Position numbers and translations under genes: made by a program. Of a stretch of DNA of 34,962 nt, positions 1,627 through 9,932 are shown piece after piece (position 1 is the stretch's first letter; each line of letters opens with the position of its first letter). The stretch covers positions 1 to 34,962 of the forward strand of contig VGLH01000030.1 in assembly GCA_016866785.1 (NCBI GenBank). The letters are read 5' to 3'. Source of the stretch: Candidatus Poribacteria bacterium. Its GTDB lineage: Bacteria; Poribacteria; WGA-4E; GCA-2687025. The notes beneath the pieces were generated by a model. That model worked only from the letters and a program-made list of their open reading frames with translations. It was not told the origin of the DNA and ran no database searches.

Positions 1627-2589
1627 TCAGGACTCGGCAGCGTCCAAGTCGACGTCCAGATCGTTCGCAACGTGCCGTCGGGGCGGCGTCATCGGCAACA
1701 CTCGACTGGGCTGCTCGGACGACGACTCGCCGAAGTAGTCGGCGCGTGAGATGATTCTGTCGCCATGCGGGTCATACGCCTGGACGAACCGACCGTCGCG
1801 GAACACGGTCACATGGTTCGTTTCCTCGCTGACCGCGATCGCCACCAGCACTTCGTCGAGTGACGACCCGTAGATCGCCGCGCTGTGACGGGCACTGCCG
1901 TCCATGAGCCGCTCGACCTTCGAATAGACCTTATAGGATCGCACTCCCTCGACCATCTGGCGCGTTCGGACGATGATGCCGCACAGGTCGACGATGAGGG
2001 CTCCGTCGCGTTCCTCGTAGCCCAGCACGTCGCCCTCGTCGCTCAGCCGGAGCTCCTTGCCACCCATGTACTCGAAGACGTTGTAGGCGTTGGGCGAGAA
2101 GATGTGCGGCTGACGGTCGATGCCTCGGAACTCGTCATGATCGAGGTACTCCGCCTGTCCTTCGTGGAAGTCGGAGAAATGCCCCGGATCCATGTTCCGC
2201 GCGTCGACGAGCAGCACGAGCAGACCTCGGTTGTGCTGGGTCTCGACGCTTTCGAGGGCGAAGCGGCAGGCGAGCGAGGTCAACTTCTCGATGTACAGCT
2301 CGACTAACTGCGCCCGATCTTCGGCGAGCTGCTCGAACCGCCGCCGCGAGACGCTCATCTCGAGGATACGTTCCTCGACTCGTCGTTCGACCAGACCGGG
2401 GATGCCGGCTTCGGTGTCGGCACGGCTCCGCTCGGCATCGGCGAGCGCATCACGGAGTTCGTCGACCTGGCACTGGAGGGCGCGGATAGAGTCCTCGTAC
2501 GCCTCGCGCTCTTCGCGGAGCTTGTCGCGCTCGCGTGCGGCGTCAAGGAGCCGGAAGTAGGTCGTCCGTCGCAGGAGCTTGATGGGCAC
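1627..2589 (-). CDS. Coiled-coil protein with C-terminal diadenylate cyclase-like (DAC/DisA_N) domain
   Basis: The 320-residue protein starts at GTG 2589, with GAGG six bases upstream. Residues about 15-105 are heavily charged and heptad-like (rich in E, R, L), a predicted coiled coil. Residues about 120-275 resemble the DAC fold: a hydrophobic strand GLLVLLVDA (122-130), the DGALIVD strand with motif DGA at 195-197, then SARHSAA (RHS at 234-236 where the family has RHR), then AVSEET (252-257) followed by a V-x-V-FRDGRF strand. DAC enzymes condense two ATP into c-di-AMP. The fold assignment rests on these four ordered motifs. Activity is uncertain because the third residue of RHR is Ser. There are no membrane helices (unlike CdaA) and no HhH domain (unlike DisA). 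The tail after 285 looks disordered and acidic. It lies 34 bases before the HTH gene. Confidence 0.72.
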   Translation of the reverse strand: MPIKLLRRTTYFRLLDAARERDKLREEREAYEDSIRALQCQVDELRDALADAERSRADTEAGIPGLVERRVEERILEMSVSRRRFEQLAEDRAQLVELYIEKLTSLACRFALESVETQHNRGLLVLLVDARNMDPGHFSDFHEGQAEYLDHDEFRGIDRQPHIFSPNAYNVFEYMGGKELRLSDEGDVLGYEERDGALIVDLCGIIVRTRQMVEGVRSYKVYSKVERLMDGSARHSAAIYGSSLDEVLVAIAVSEETNHVTVFRDGRFVQAYDPHGDRIISRADYFGESSSEQPSRVLPMTPPRRHVANDLDVDLDAAES

Positions 2590-6281: not shown

Positions 6282-9200
6282 TCAGAAGCCCGACCTGCCC
6301 AAGCCGCCTGCGGTGAACGTAGACGGAACGCCGATCGGCAGGCTCCTGAAGCCCCAGCTCTGCGTGATCCCGTCGTAGCCCGCGCCCATGGTGACCATCG
6401 GGTCGGCGATCAGATTGATCTGGTAGGTGAATTCCTTGCGAACGTTGCCGATGCTGCCGTAGCGCCTCCAGGTGATGTGGAGGTCCCAGTCGCGCAGGTT
6501 CCTGCGCAGCGTCAGGTTCTGCGAGAACGGATGGAGGTAGGCGACGCCCGACGAGCGCGCCAGCGAGTTCGTTCGCCATCCGGTCGGGTTGGCGATCCGG
6601 TCTCGGTCGTAGTCCCACTGAGTGTCGAGGGAGATCTCCAGCAGCGTGCTGGGTCGCCACGATCCGCCGATCAGGAACGACCGTCGCGCCGACGTGTAGT
6701 TGGTGTACTGGCTCCCCAGGTCGAGGTTCCACCCCTTCGTGTAGTTGCCGCCGCGATAGTGGAGCGCCGACGACAGCCCGATCAACGAGAAGGGGGCTCG
6801 CTGGATCGTGGACGTTGGCGAGTACGTGTTGGGATCGACCGTCGTCTGCAGCGTGCCATAGAGGTTCCCGCTGCTGAGGGGCGAGAAGTTCATCGTGCCG
6901 CTGATGAACTCCCACTTTCGGTCGCCGACCGCCGACCGGTCCGTGTAGTCCCGCGACGTTCGGACGCTCAGCGTCAGGGCGTTCACGACCTTGTTGGCGC
7001 GCGTCTTGATCTGGACGTTCGACGTGAGGCTGAGCCGGATGAGCTTCCGTTCGTAGAGGTACGTGCTGGAACCGAACGGATAGAGCTTGATCGTGTCCGG
7101 CGACGGGTTGTCGGGGTCTTCGTCGGCGTCATTCGCCGACGGGGCCCAGTCGAAGCCGGCTTCCGAGCGAACCTCGTGCCGGAGTCGATTGGCGCCGGGA
7201 ACCCAACCGATGTCCCACACGCGGAACAGCAGGTTGCTCAGGCTCGAACTCGCGCTGACCAGAGGACGGATGATGTTCGTGTTCCCCTTCTGGTCCTTCT
7301 GGTGCCAGACGGCTTGGGTGCTGCCCCTCAGCGACAGCACGAACTCGCGCGTCTGGGTCAGTTTGAGCTTGGACTGCTTCGAGACGTCGAGACCCAGATC
7401 GCCGGCTTGGAGGAACACGTCCTCGGTCTCGTCGGCGGACAGACCTCGCGCTTGGCGTATCGCCTGGATCCCCGGCGAGTAGCGGAACTCGTTCCGGTAC
7501 AGATTCGCTATGGTCCCGTCGAGCGAGAAGTTCGCGTCCGTCAGCGTTGGCACGGCGAGGAGAGGAAGCTTCCATCGGTCCACGCGTCGAGCGGCTTGCA
7601 TCAGCCGGTCGTTGATCCGCCGGAGTCCCCACAGCCGTTCGAGTTCAGATGACCACGACAAGGTCAGTTCCGGCAGGCGTTGGTTCGTGCCGCTGCTGTC
7701 CTCGCTGAGCTCGAACGTCTTGTCGACCGTCAGGCGACCGTCGACGGAGGTCGCTCCCTGCCCGGAGATGGAGCTGAACGTAACGACGCCGAACGTCTGG
7801 AGCTCGGCGCGGTCGGTTCCGTAGCTTCCGAAGTAGTTGCGGTTCCCGTACTGTACCTTGCCCCAGAACGTGACGCCGCGACGCTCGTAGCGCCCCGTCT
7901 TGTCCCACGGAGTTGGGACCTCCATCCGATGGCTAGCGGCTCCATCCCACTGCCTGCCGATCTTGAACGTTTCCTGCCGCCCGTAGGAGTAAATGTCTTT
8001 CGTGAACAGGTAGACCTCGCCGTTCATCGTGCGCCGACGCCCCGCCTGAACGACGTAGAGGGCTTCGGGCGCCTCGATGACCGAGCTCACCTCGCCCTTC
8101 TCCAAGCCGACCGAGGCTCGATAGACGTTCAGCGGCACGTCTCCGCGACCCGTGTACCCGATGTAGCCGCCGTCCTCGGCGCTCTCGGCGTTGCTGATCT
8201 CTCGCGCCAGTTGGGCGAAGTCGGGAGTGGGCTCCTTGTCGGCAAGCCGCAGCAGCAGGATGCCCTCGTCCACCGAGATGGCTTCGGTGGTCTCGCCGAC
8301 CTGCAGCTCCGTCAGGAGCCGTCGTTGGCTGTAGTCGAAGTCGTTGATCGGCGTGCGGATGGTCTGCGCGCCGGGAGGTCCCTGCGGAACCGGCTCGGAA
8401 CTGTCGCTGGCTGAGCCCGGCGTCTGGGCGGCGACTCCGACGCCTCTCCGCCTCTCCTTCTCGGAGTCGGTCCAGGCGGATTCAGGCACGTTTGAGCCGT
8501 ATCGCGAGAGCATCGCGGCGAAGTCCTCGCCGTTCCGGGCGGATCGCAGCAGGCGTTGCGCGAGGTCCGCCGTCTCCTGCTTCGATTCGTCGCTCGCCTG
8601 AATCGGCACGAACACCTGCTGCACCTGTTTCTCGACTGTGCCGTAGAGGTCCATCGTGTCAGAGACGCGGAAGATGTAGAAGCCGCTCTCCGTCGCCACG
8701 ACCGGACTGACCTGCCCGTACTCCAGCAAGAGCGCGACGGATTCCAGGTCTGGCGTCAAGGCGGCATCGCCGGGCACCAGGTATCCGAGGATCGAGAACC
8801 GCCCTCCCAAGCGCTCGAGATCCTCGCCCTTGGCGGCACCGGCCTGAATCTCATCGGCGCGTTGTCGCGCGCGCGTCACGTCGTCCTCGGCGCGCGGATG
8901 CGGGAGGAACAGACGTTGGACCAGAACCTGGTCGAAGTCGCCGGCGAGTCGGTCCCGTATCTCGCTGGCGCGGCGCTTCAGGGCGGTCTTTTCGTCGGTG
9001 GTCGCGTCCTCGGGGATGTCGAAACGGATCTCGCGCAGCTCGACATCGCGAATCTGGTACTTCGTCTCGGTTCCCTCGCCGGTTCCCCGCAGCGACGAGT
9101 AGTCGAACTGAACGGCGCTCCGCACGCGCTGACGGCGCGCCAACGGCACGTTGACGCTGAACCAGTTGCCCTGGAACGTGTCCGACCCCAGTTTCACGAT

Positions 9201-9932
9201 GACCGTGGACGGGCGCTTCTCGCGGATGCTGCGGCGATAAGCGGGAATGTAGAGGAGAGGCACGCCGCCGATCATGAAGACGACGTGCTTGGCGATGATC
9301 TCGTTGTCGAGATGGACGATGATCCGCGAGGCACGGAAGTAGGTGTGGGGGTACTTCAGCGAGCTCGTCGTCAGGCGCCCCCCATTGATGAGGGACTCCT
9401 TCTCGGACACCCGGAGGATTCGGTATCCCTGGTAGTACCAGGGCGAGCCGTACGCCGCGCCGCCGTGCGCGATCCCCTGCTTCGTGCGCAGGTTGAACAC
9501 GAGCTCGTCGGCGTAGGTCACCTCCTCATCGACCCGCAGCCGCACGTTGCCCTCGGCGCGTAGGACGTTCTCGTCGAAGTCCGCCCATGCGTTTTCCGAC
9601 TCGAGAACCATGTTCTCGAACCGGATGTACGCGCCGCCCTTGAGGTGGACGATATTATCTCGCCAGACGACCTGCTCCGCGCCCTCGACGTAGGCTTGGT
9701 CCTTGCGGAGCTCCATGGTTCTGCCGAGGACGCTCGCGTCCAACGCCTCCGCCGATTCGGGAGGCTGGGCTGGGGCATCCGCCGCGTCGGCGGGCGGCGG
9801 AGCCTCCTCAACCGGATCGGCGGCATCTGCTAGCCAAGGGACTGCCAACGCCAGCCAGGAAGCGAGCGCCAGTCGATACCATCGTCGCCAGCGACGCCTG
9901 CCTGGCACGTGCCCGGCTCCCACTGACTCCAT
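6282..9932 (-). CDS. LptD/OstA-like outer-membrane assembly protein with inserted parvulin-like domains
   Basis: The 1216-residue protein starts at ATG 9932 behind GGAGG. An Arg-rich N-terminus plus a hydrophobic stretch (about 20-35) ending ADA-AD is a signal peptide. Residues about 70-270 match the LptD periplasmic OstA jellyroll: repeated 'A-N-D-E' strands, LRAEGNVRLR, then VPLLYIPAYRRS. Residues about 640-1216 read as a beta-barrel with alternating aromatic strands and a terminal Phe after GLGRSG, the usual outer-membrane beta-signal. Between them lie three parvulin-like segments (about 334-428, 434-565, 570-633) with GED-F/L, G-QVSPVV and GEVSSV signatures. LptD inserts LPS into the outer membrane, and that role is inferred here. 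The insertion is atypical. I find no cysteine in the protein, so the LptD disulfides are absent. It lies between a surA-like gene and metH. Confidence 0.8.
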   Translation of the reverse strand: MESVGAGHVPGRRRWRRWYRLALASWLALAVPWLADAADPVEEAPPPADAADAPAQPPESAEALDASVLGRTMELRKDQAYVEGAEQVVWRDNIVHLKGGAYIRFENMVLESENAWADFDENVLRAEGNVRLRVDEEVTYADELVFNLRTKQGIAHGGAAYGSPWYYQGYRILRVSEKESLINGGRLTTSSLKYPHTYFRASRIIVHLDNEIIAKHVVFMIGGVPLLYIPAYRRSIREKRPSTVIVKLGSDTFQGNWFSVNVPLARRQRVRSAVQFDYSSLRGTGEGTETKYQIRDVELREIRFDIPEDATTDEKTALKRRASEIRDRLAGDFDQVLVQRLFLPHPRAEDDVTRARQRADEIQAGAAKGEDLERLGGRFSILGYLVPGDAALTPDLESVALLLEYGQVSPVVATESGFYIFRVSDTMDLYGTVEKQVQQVFVPIQASDESKQETADLAQRLLRSARNGEDFAAMLSRYGSNVPESAWTDSEKERRRGVGVAAQTPGSASDSSEPVPQGPPGAQTIRTPINDFDYSQRRLLTELQVGETTEAISVDEGILLLRLADKEPTPDFAQLAREISNAESAEDGGYIGYTGRGDVPLNVYRASVGLEKGEVSSVIEAPEALYVVQAGRRRTMNGEVYLFTKDIYSYGRQETFKIGRQWDGAASHRMEVPTPWDKTGRYERRGVTFWGKVQYGNRNYFGSYGTDRAELQTFGVVTFSSISGQGATSVDGRLTVDKTFELSEDSSGTNQRLPELTLSWSSELERLWGLRRINDRLMQAARRVDRWKLPLLAVPTLTDANFSLDGTIANLYRNEFRYSPGIQAIRQARGLSADETEDVFLQAGDLGLDVSKQSKLKLTQTREFVLSLRGSTQAVWHQKDQKGNTNIIRPLVSASSSLSNLLFRVWDIGWVPGANRLRHEVRSEAGFDWAPSANDADEDPDNPSPDTIKLYPFGSSTYLYERKLIRLSLTSNVQIKTRANKVVNALTLSVRTSRDYTDRSAVGDRKWEFISGTMNFSPLSSGNLYGTLQTTVDPNTYSPTSTIQRAPFSLIGLSSALHYRGGNYTKGWNLDLGSQYTNYTSARRSFLIGGSWRPSTLLEISLDTQWDYDRDRIANPTGWRTNSLARSSGVAYLHPFSQNLTLRRNLRDWDLHITWRRYGSIGNVRKEFTYQINLIADPMVTMGAGYDGITQSWGFRSLPIGVPSTFTAGGLGRSGF
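8034..8933 (-). other. Parvulin-like insert inside the LptD-like protein
   Basis: This covers residues about 334-633 of the LptD-like protein. Each unit follows the parvulin order: an opening strand, an A-rich helix, a GEDL/GEDF turn, a G-x-[IL]GY segment, then hydrophobic 'L-G-[VE]-S' and a closing strand. The third unit starts at the helix and is incomplete. The histidines usually found in the opening (RHIL) and closing (GYHI) strands of active parvulins are replaced (VQRLF, GFYIF, LYVVQ), which suggests a binding or chaperone role rather than catalysis. A low-complexity linker (about 493-527) sits inside unit 2. Confidence 0.65.

Follow-up and report, generated by a model that had tools for sequence, protein, structure and literature searches.

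The minus-strand gene at 1627..2589 of the window, by which we mean the whole 34,962-nucleotide stretch of Candidatus Poribacteria DNA analyzed here (contig VGLH01000030.1), encodes a protein that ends in a divergent DAC domain, an assignment confirmed by sequence-profile comparison and by a predicted structure. The same comparisons support placing the protein in the DAC superfamily outside the described architectures, with one canonical motif residue missing. In the reading that we regard as likely, it is a soluble enzyme that would make c-di-AMP in its hosts and would represent a new diadenylate cyclase class restricted to Poribacteria. Judged from sequence and model, the window protein is probably the c-di-AMP synthase of its lineage.

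The open reading frame and its translation define a whole gene of 320 amino acids and a stop codon, starting from a GTG at 2589. The open frame reaches further upstream, to a GTG at 2667 (346-aa reading). Because the homologues L022, L023, and L025 share the start position of GTG 2589 (PIK[IL][LM], with TTG or GTG start codons) and a GAGG lies at 2596–2599, 6 bases 5′ of it, GTG 2589 is the better start, in agreement with the coordinates 1627–2589 of the preliminary description. An AlphaFold model built with 17 sequences (pLDDT 78.7, pTM 0.65) contained two long helices, an alpha/beta domain, and a disordered tail. The helices (residues 8–77 and 82–116) form a predicted N-terminal coiled coil (2242..2568, minus strand, residues 8–116) with block pLDDT values of 81–94 from residue 11; residues 1–116 are 41% charged, and this part of the protein returned weak matches to coiled-coil families. 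The DAC-like domain follows (1747..2232, minus strand, residues 120–281) and was delimited by PF02457 and by Foldseek and VIA-align over residues 89–280 of the model. The remaining C-terminal tail (1630..1746, minus strand, residues 282–320) is mostly disordered and poorly conserved, with block pLDDT values of 35–37 from residue 291 and conservation of 0.25–0.42 from residue 281 in a 20-row alignment. No transmembrane helix was found: the maximum Kyte-Doolittle hydropathy over 19 residues was 0.94–1.34 in 17 of 17 family proteins, versus 2.15–2.43 in four CdaA controls. A Pfam scan of the window protein returned no HhH family at E ≤ 10. The layout proposed beforehand, a soluble protein with its DAC domain at the C-terminal end behind a coiled coil, lacking both the membrane helices of CdaA and the HhH modules of DisA, therefore held.

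Several independent comparisons identified the domain. PF02457 (DAC) matched residues 221–293 of the 346-aa reading, equivalent to 195–267 of the 320, at 3.4e-5 and 23.9 bits, below the gathering cut-off of 27. Four homologues exceeded this cut-off (30.8, 28.8, 28.1, and 27.3 with neighbours), and 17 of the 18 homologues scanned gave a DAC match at E ≤ 0.1, the best at 4.6e-7. With hhalign, the profile of the family (17 members) aligned to a profile of 17 CdaA- and DisA-type domains with an E value of 1.2e-6 and 91% probability, pairing D195-G-A with DGA, R234-H235 with RH, and S254-E-E with SEE. Among the Foldseek matches listed for the model, 50 of 50 were DACs (E 2e-5 to 5e-4). Their TM-scores over the whole model were modest (TMt 0.28–0.67 among the matches listed), in part because of the coiled coil and the greater length of some targets. 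VIA-align placed DACs (CdaA, CdaS, DisA, and CdaM) in all of its top 40 entries at Z 10.2–12.2, and the next, unrelated entry reached 6.8. Against PDB sequences, phmmer listed no DAC, and the family profile reached DacM only, at E 0.04. The preliminary description had picked out ERDGA, SARHSAA, SEET, and FRDGR as motifs in DAC order. All are present, and the Pfam, homologue, hhalign, and fold matches together show that they are not there by chance. FRDGR lies after SEE and is a conserved feature of the family, but we know of no reason to treat it as a DAC signature. The profile and structural comparisons that had been suggested as checks both favored a DAC fold, the latter by a clear margin.

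The motifs also fall on the nucleotide pocket when aligned with the ligand residues published for LmCdaA. PMC7288161 lists the side chains of Leu31, Asp71, Thr102, Arg103, His104, Ser122, and Glu124 and the main chains of Leu88, Gly101, and Glu123 as ligand contacts; the third Arg of RHR is not among the residues listed there. Counted over 20 homologues, which included L012 (a near-copy of L011) and L021, both left out of alignment A1, the D and G of the DGA motif (D195–A197, 1999..2007, minus strand; D195 corresponds to Asp71) were kept in 20/20 and the A in 19/20. The SEE motif at residues 254–256 (1822..1830, minus strand), corresponding to S122/E123/E124 of LmCdaA on the metal and phosphate side, was present in full in 20/20. 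The Leu31 equivalent is L/F124 by alignment. Residues 233–236, A-R-H-S (1882..1893, minus strand), were aligned by hhalign to RHR as the equivalent of T-R-H-R. At residue 234, the counterpart of Arg103, Arg was found in 13/20 and Lys in 7/20, and at residue 235, the counterpart of His104, His in 19/20 and Arg in 1/20. The equivalent of Thr102, A233, was Ala in 19/20 and Ser in 1/20, and the third Arg of RHR was gone in 20/20 (Asn in 17, Ala in 2, Ser in 1). By alignment, then, the family retains the acidic residue, the pair of basic residues, and the metal-binding side, and has lost the Thr and the third Arg; the preliminary description had not stressed the missing Arg. The third Arg varies in canonical DACs as well: RHQ occurred in 2 of 17 aligned, L045 and L058, a count that comes from a motif-filtered set (30 PF02457 loci, L038–L067, reduced to 18 by the motif filter and to 17 in alignment A3 after the fragment L049 was left out). 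Changing RHR to AAA inactivated MtbDisA (PMC3328451), an experiment that does not tell the three residues apart. One homologue, L020 of genome G035, has K-R where R-H is expected, and G035 gave no other DAC match; whether c-di-AMP is still produced in that lineage could thus be tested on a naturally occurring variant.

Next to the pocket the family carries elements of its own. An 18-residue hairpin insert before DGA (residues 176–193, with strands 178–182 and 188–193 by DSSP of the model; 2011..2064, minus strand) is missing from CdaA and DisA in the alignment. So is EGVR of MVEGVR(T/S), residues 214–217 (1939..1950, minus strand), of which E214, G215, V216, and R217 are each invariant in 20/20. 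EGVR sits in the loop that carries the adenine contact Leu88 in CdaA, and the model is of low confidence there (pLDDT <50 at 217–220).

These changes would suit a protein in which the DAC fold, no longer catalytic, acts as a sensor or receptor that binds ATP or c-di-AMP and signals through the coiled coil. We consider this unlikely. In its favor are the absence of the third Arg from every homologue, the replacement of the Thr in all, the exchange of the first Arg for Lys in seven and of the His in one, and the re-building of the loop that holds adenine in CdaA; four of the 20 carriers (G007, G008, G009, and G079) additionally encode a second, canonical DAC. However, the catalytic Asp and the metal-binding Glu are invariant in 20/20, and no other DAC was detected in 16 of the 20 carriers, which would leave a receptor for c-di-AMP without a ligand in those genomes. 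The genome of origin is among these 16: at 95.4% completeness, its only PF02457 match was the window gene. Across the 82 genomes of the class, in sets compiled by hand from searches for relatives, PF02457, and PgpH, a canonical DAC over the cut-off was found in 47, the window-type gene in 20, both in the four carriers just named, and neither in 19. In family f2 of the class, 43 of the 58 genomes have a canonical DAC, and none has the window-type gene. The f2 DACs inspected by eye (L055, L057, L061, and L064) and the one in G009, five in all, have the DisA layout. As a side observation, DAC types replace each other within the class, DisA-like in f2 and the window type in f1 and f3–f8, and the second DAC is CdaA-like in G007 and perhaps in G008.

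Phosphodiesterase genes also bear on this question. The preliminary description had proposed a genome search for c-di-AMP phosphodiesterases and receptors, and the genome of origin encodes a complete PgpH (7TMR-HDED, 7TM, and HD), an NrnA/DhhP-like DHH-DHHA1 protein lying on two contig pieces, and, among the receptor types looked for, a TrkA (TrkA_N and TrkA_C) adjoining TrkH; neither CdAMP_rec nor a ydaO riboswitch was found. PgpH is described in PMC7288161 as a c-di-AMP phosphodiesterase. PF07698 (PgpH) exceeded the cut-off in 9 of the 82 class genomes, seven of them carriers, and in 0 of 58 f2 genomes, where four gave matches below the cut-off. The window-type gene was accordingly present in 7/9 genomes with PgpH versus 13/73 without (Fisher p 5e-4, with lineages that are not independent). 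In the window's family, each of the four carriers (G000, G001, G002, and G005) has PgpH, and none has a canonical DAC match; at completeness values of 95, 64, 91, and 92%, it is unlikely that missing sequence explains the lack of a second DAC in all of them. The retention of PgpH in these four also speaks against a protein without catalysis. Two further genomes, G003 and G004 (61% and 79% complete), have PgpH and no DAC match. The gene can persist without PgpH, which is missing from 13 of the 20 carriers, including those of f6–f8. The short DHH protein discriminates nothing, as most genomes of the class gave two matches in the DHH search irrespective of whether they have a DAC.

In the genomes searched, relatives of the protein were confined to Poribacteria. 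A protein search found them in 20 of 97 genomes, all within the 82 of its own class. A profile search of 386 genomes recovered the same 20 at 387–520 bits and six others at 19–27 bits, leaving a sharp gap; one of the six (G242) matched the coiled-coil part of the profile only, and the 304 genomes outside the class gave no comparable match to the profile. In a one-genome-per-species set (84,980 species), two family motifs located 185 stretches, and the 16 among them that code for a relative all come from Poribacteria; the 16 relatives with names are all Candidatus or uncultured Poribacteria. A scan of that set with a single sequence gave no match. In a tree of CdaA and DisA domains, which held no CdaS rows and in which the CdaA rows in between are poorly resolved, a branch of 4.14 changes per column, supported at 100/100, separated the family from the rest. 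The DisA branch measured 4.83 in the same tree, and the family thus lies about as far from CdaA as DisA does. The window protein, L022, L023, and L025 grouped at 99/99 inside the family clade. Values of dN/dS were 0.07–0.21 in 6 pairs, some of which approach saturation at synonymous sites, and by this measure the family is under purifying selection. A phage, plasmid, or defense origin was rejected: tblastn gave no match in plasmids or phages and none in viral contigs, no PHROG matched, the one PADLOC match (0.058) lay over the coiled coil, and predicted viral structures gave none at E ≤ 0.001 (best 0.14).

Five characterized DAC types are named in PMC10117811 and PMC6741144, the latter of which also gives the further sequence classes DacC–E and DacV–X. 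The layout of the window protein fits none of the five exactly. It resembles CdaA/DacA in its fold (6hvm_B, Z 12.1, rmsd 3.9, 143 residues), in DGA and SEE(T/N), and in the PgpH of its own genome, but it differs by its lack of transmembrane helices, of the third Arg of RHR, and of the Thr, and by its insert, EGVR loop, and long N-terminal coiled coil. DisA shares the fold (9y9y_A, Z 11.4, rmsd 2.9, 129 residues) and solubility; in contrast to the family protein, where the DAC domain comes last and HhH is missing, DisA has its DAC domain first and a DNA-binding C-terminus, and DisA-type rows read S(Q/R)xR in place of SEE. CdaM/DacM of mycoplasmas has the DAC fold (7dfx_A, Z 11.9) and, unlike the family protein, a single transmembrane segment before it. 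According to PMC5508000, CdaM/DacM is a lineage-restricted class that was set up on architecture. In CdaZ/DacZ of archaea and some bacteria, the DAC domain likewise follows an N-terminal domain that does not anchor the protein in the membrane. That N-terminal domain is a PK_C-like alpha/beta domain (PMC6741144), whereas the N-terminus of the family is a helical coiled coil without a PK_C-like Pfam match.

The closest outline is that of CdaS/DacB. An outlying position within CdaS/DacB, or within DacC, DacD, or DacE, classes reportedly defined by Corrigan and Gruendling in 2013, would be a question of filing compatible with the cyclase reading, and it seems improbable. CdaS is soluble and has N-terminal helices, and the window protein shares that outline, though only the outline: soluble, with an N-terminal helical region and a C-terminal DAC domain. 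B. cereus CdaS (2fb5, Z 12.2, rmsd 3.3, 137 residues) was also the nominal top structural row of VIA-align, in a tie with CdaA. However, the coiled coil of the family protein is much longer, CdaS was not among the phmmer matches, and the insert and EGVR loop are peculiar to the family. The absence of a comparable match from the genomes outside the class and the long branch to CdaA likewise argue against membership. The suggestion of an additional DAC class thus stands as far as layout goes, with the qualification that CdaS/DacB, compared outside the tree, comes close in outline. Least probable is an active cyclase whose product is a different cyclic dinucleotide, either a hybrid or one without adenine: its chemistry residues (D, R/K-H, and SEE) would be kept, base recognition would be re-shaped by the hairpin insert and by a loop that is invariant yet unlike that of CdaA or DisA, and the f6–f8 carriers without PgpH would agree with it, but PgpH is present in the genome of origin and in seven of the 20 carriers, and we know of no DAC whose main product is something other than c-di-AMP.

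The gene neighborhood yielded no dedicated partner. On the minus strand of the window, the gene of an LptD-like, rotamase-containing protein is followed by metH, the DAC gene, and a nagA-like amidohydrolase gene, an order that relatives do not share. The first of these (6282–9932, minus strand, 1216 residues) is LptD/OstA-like by eye and contains stretches that match PPIC rotamase domains; its product is apparently an outer-membrane assembly protein fused with parvulin domains. Neither metH upstream nor the nagA-like gene downstream is common to L022, L023, or L025, and a link through nagA and amino-sugar metabolism resembling that of CdaA and GlmM was dropped for this reason. A gene of ~560 residues with caspase-fold and PEGA parts lies directly upstream of the DAC gene in 11 of 16 named loci, according to a cluster table that lacks the DAC gene of L022 because an overlapping reverse ORF was kept there. 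The representative L029:6136–7821 has a hydrophobic N-terminus, a caspase fold (Z 10.7 to metacaspase 6w8s_D, and a match to NCBIfam caspase at 6.9e-6 that falls below the cut-off), PEGA, a TPR-like part, and a C-terminal end helix. By eye, Tyr occupies the usual Cys position, and the His is mostly lost; the product looks like an anchored pseudo-caspase. A dedicated partnership was rejected: 75/82 class genomes have relatives of the caspase-fold gene at E ≤ 1e-38, among them 54/58 f2 genomes, and 0/58 have the window-type DAC gene, the window's family (window, L022, L023, and L025) is without the linkage, and G010 has the same gene order without the DAC gene. Comparison of L119 (G010) with L029–L034 places the DAC gene, absent in the former and present in the latter, between the caspase-fold and TPR genes in an order that is otherwise the same.

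Under the cyclase reading, the DAC domain would bind ATP, the predicted substrate, and a divalent metal through D195, R234, H235, and S254–E256. Active DACs need a head-to-head pair (PMC8573169). In the family, the N-terminal coiled coil may pair two DAC domains with their pockets facing each other, and two ATP would be joined to c-di-AMP, a product predicted by homology. The coiled coil may take regulatory input besides holding the pair. The c-di-AMP would be degraded by PgpH, perhaps also by the NrnA/DhhP-like DHH-DHHA1 protein, and a plausible target is the TrkA/KtrA-type RCK protein of the TrkH potassium transporter. The cyclase reading is favored by the DAC fold, the hhalign match, the retained pocket residues, purifying selection, the status of the gene as the sole DAC detected in most carriers, and the co-occurrence with PgpH. 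The loss of the third Arg and the Thr, the exchanges of the first Arg for Lys and of the His in L020, the inactivity of MtbDisA with AAA for RHR, the Pfam DAC score below the cut-off, the f6–f8 carriers without PgpH, the PgpH genomes G003 and G004 without a DAC match, and the failure to find CdAMP_rec or a ydaO riboswitch count against it, and the lost Arg and Thr together with the re-built loop beside the pocket leave some room for a receptor or an altered product.

Herein, our findings point to a DAC family with consequences for both enzymology and surveys. As a whole conserved clade without the third Arg of RHR, it tests the need for that residue in catalysis. With Pfam DAC scores this close to the cut-off, automated annotation will pick up part of the family and overlook the rest, and surveys of c-di-AMP signaling would undercount the family as a result. 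Poribacteria are known largely from metagenome assemblies, and none of the papers searched contained both "Poribacteria" and "c-di-AMP". If the cyclase reading is true, the family would become the sixth architecture beside the five characterized DAC types, and Poribacteria would gain a c-di-AMP signaling system.
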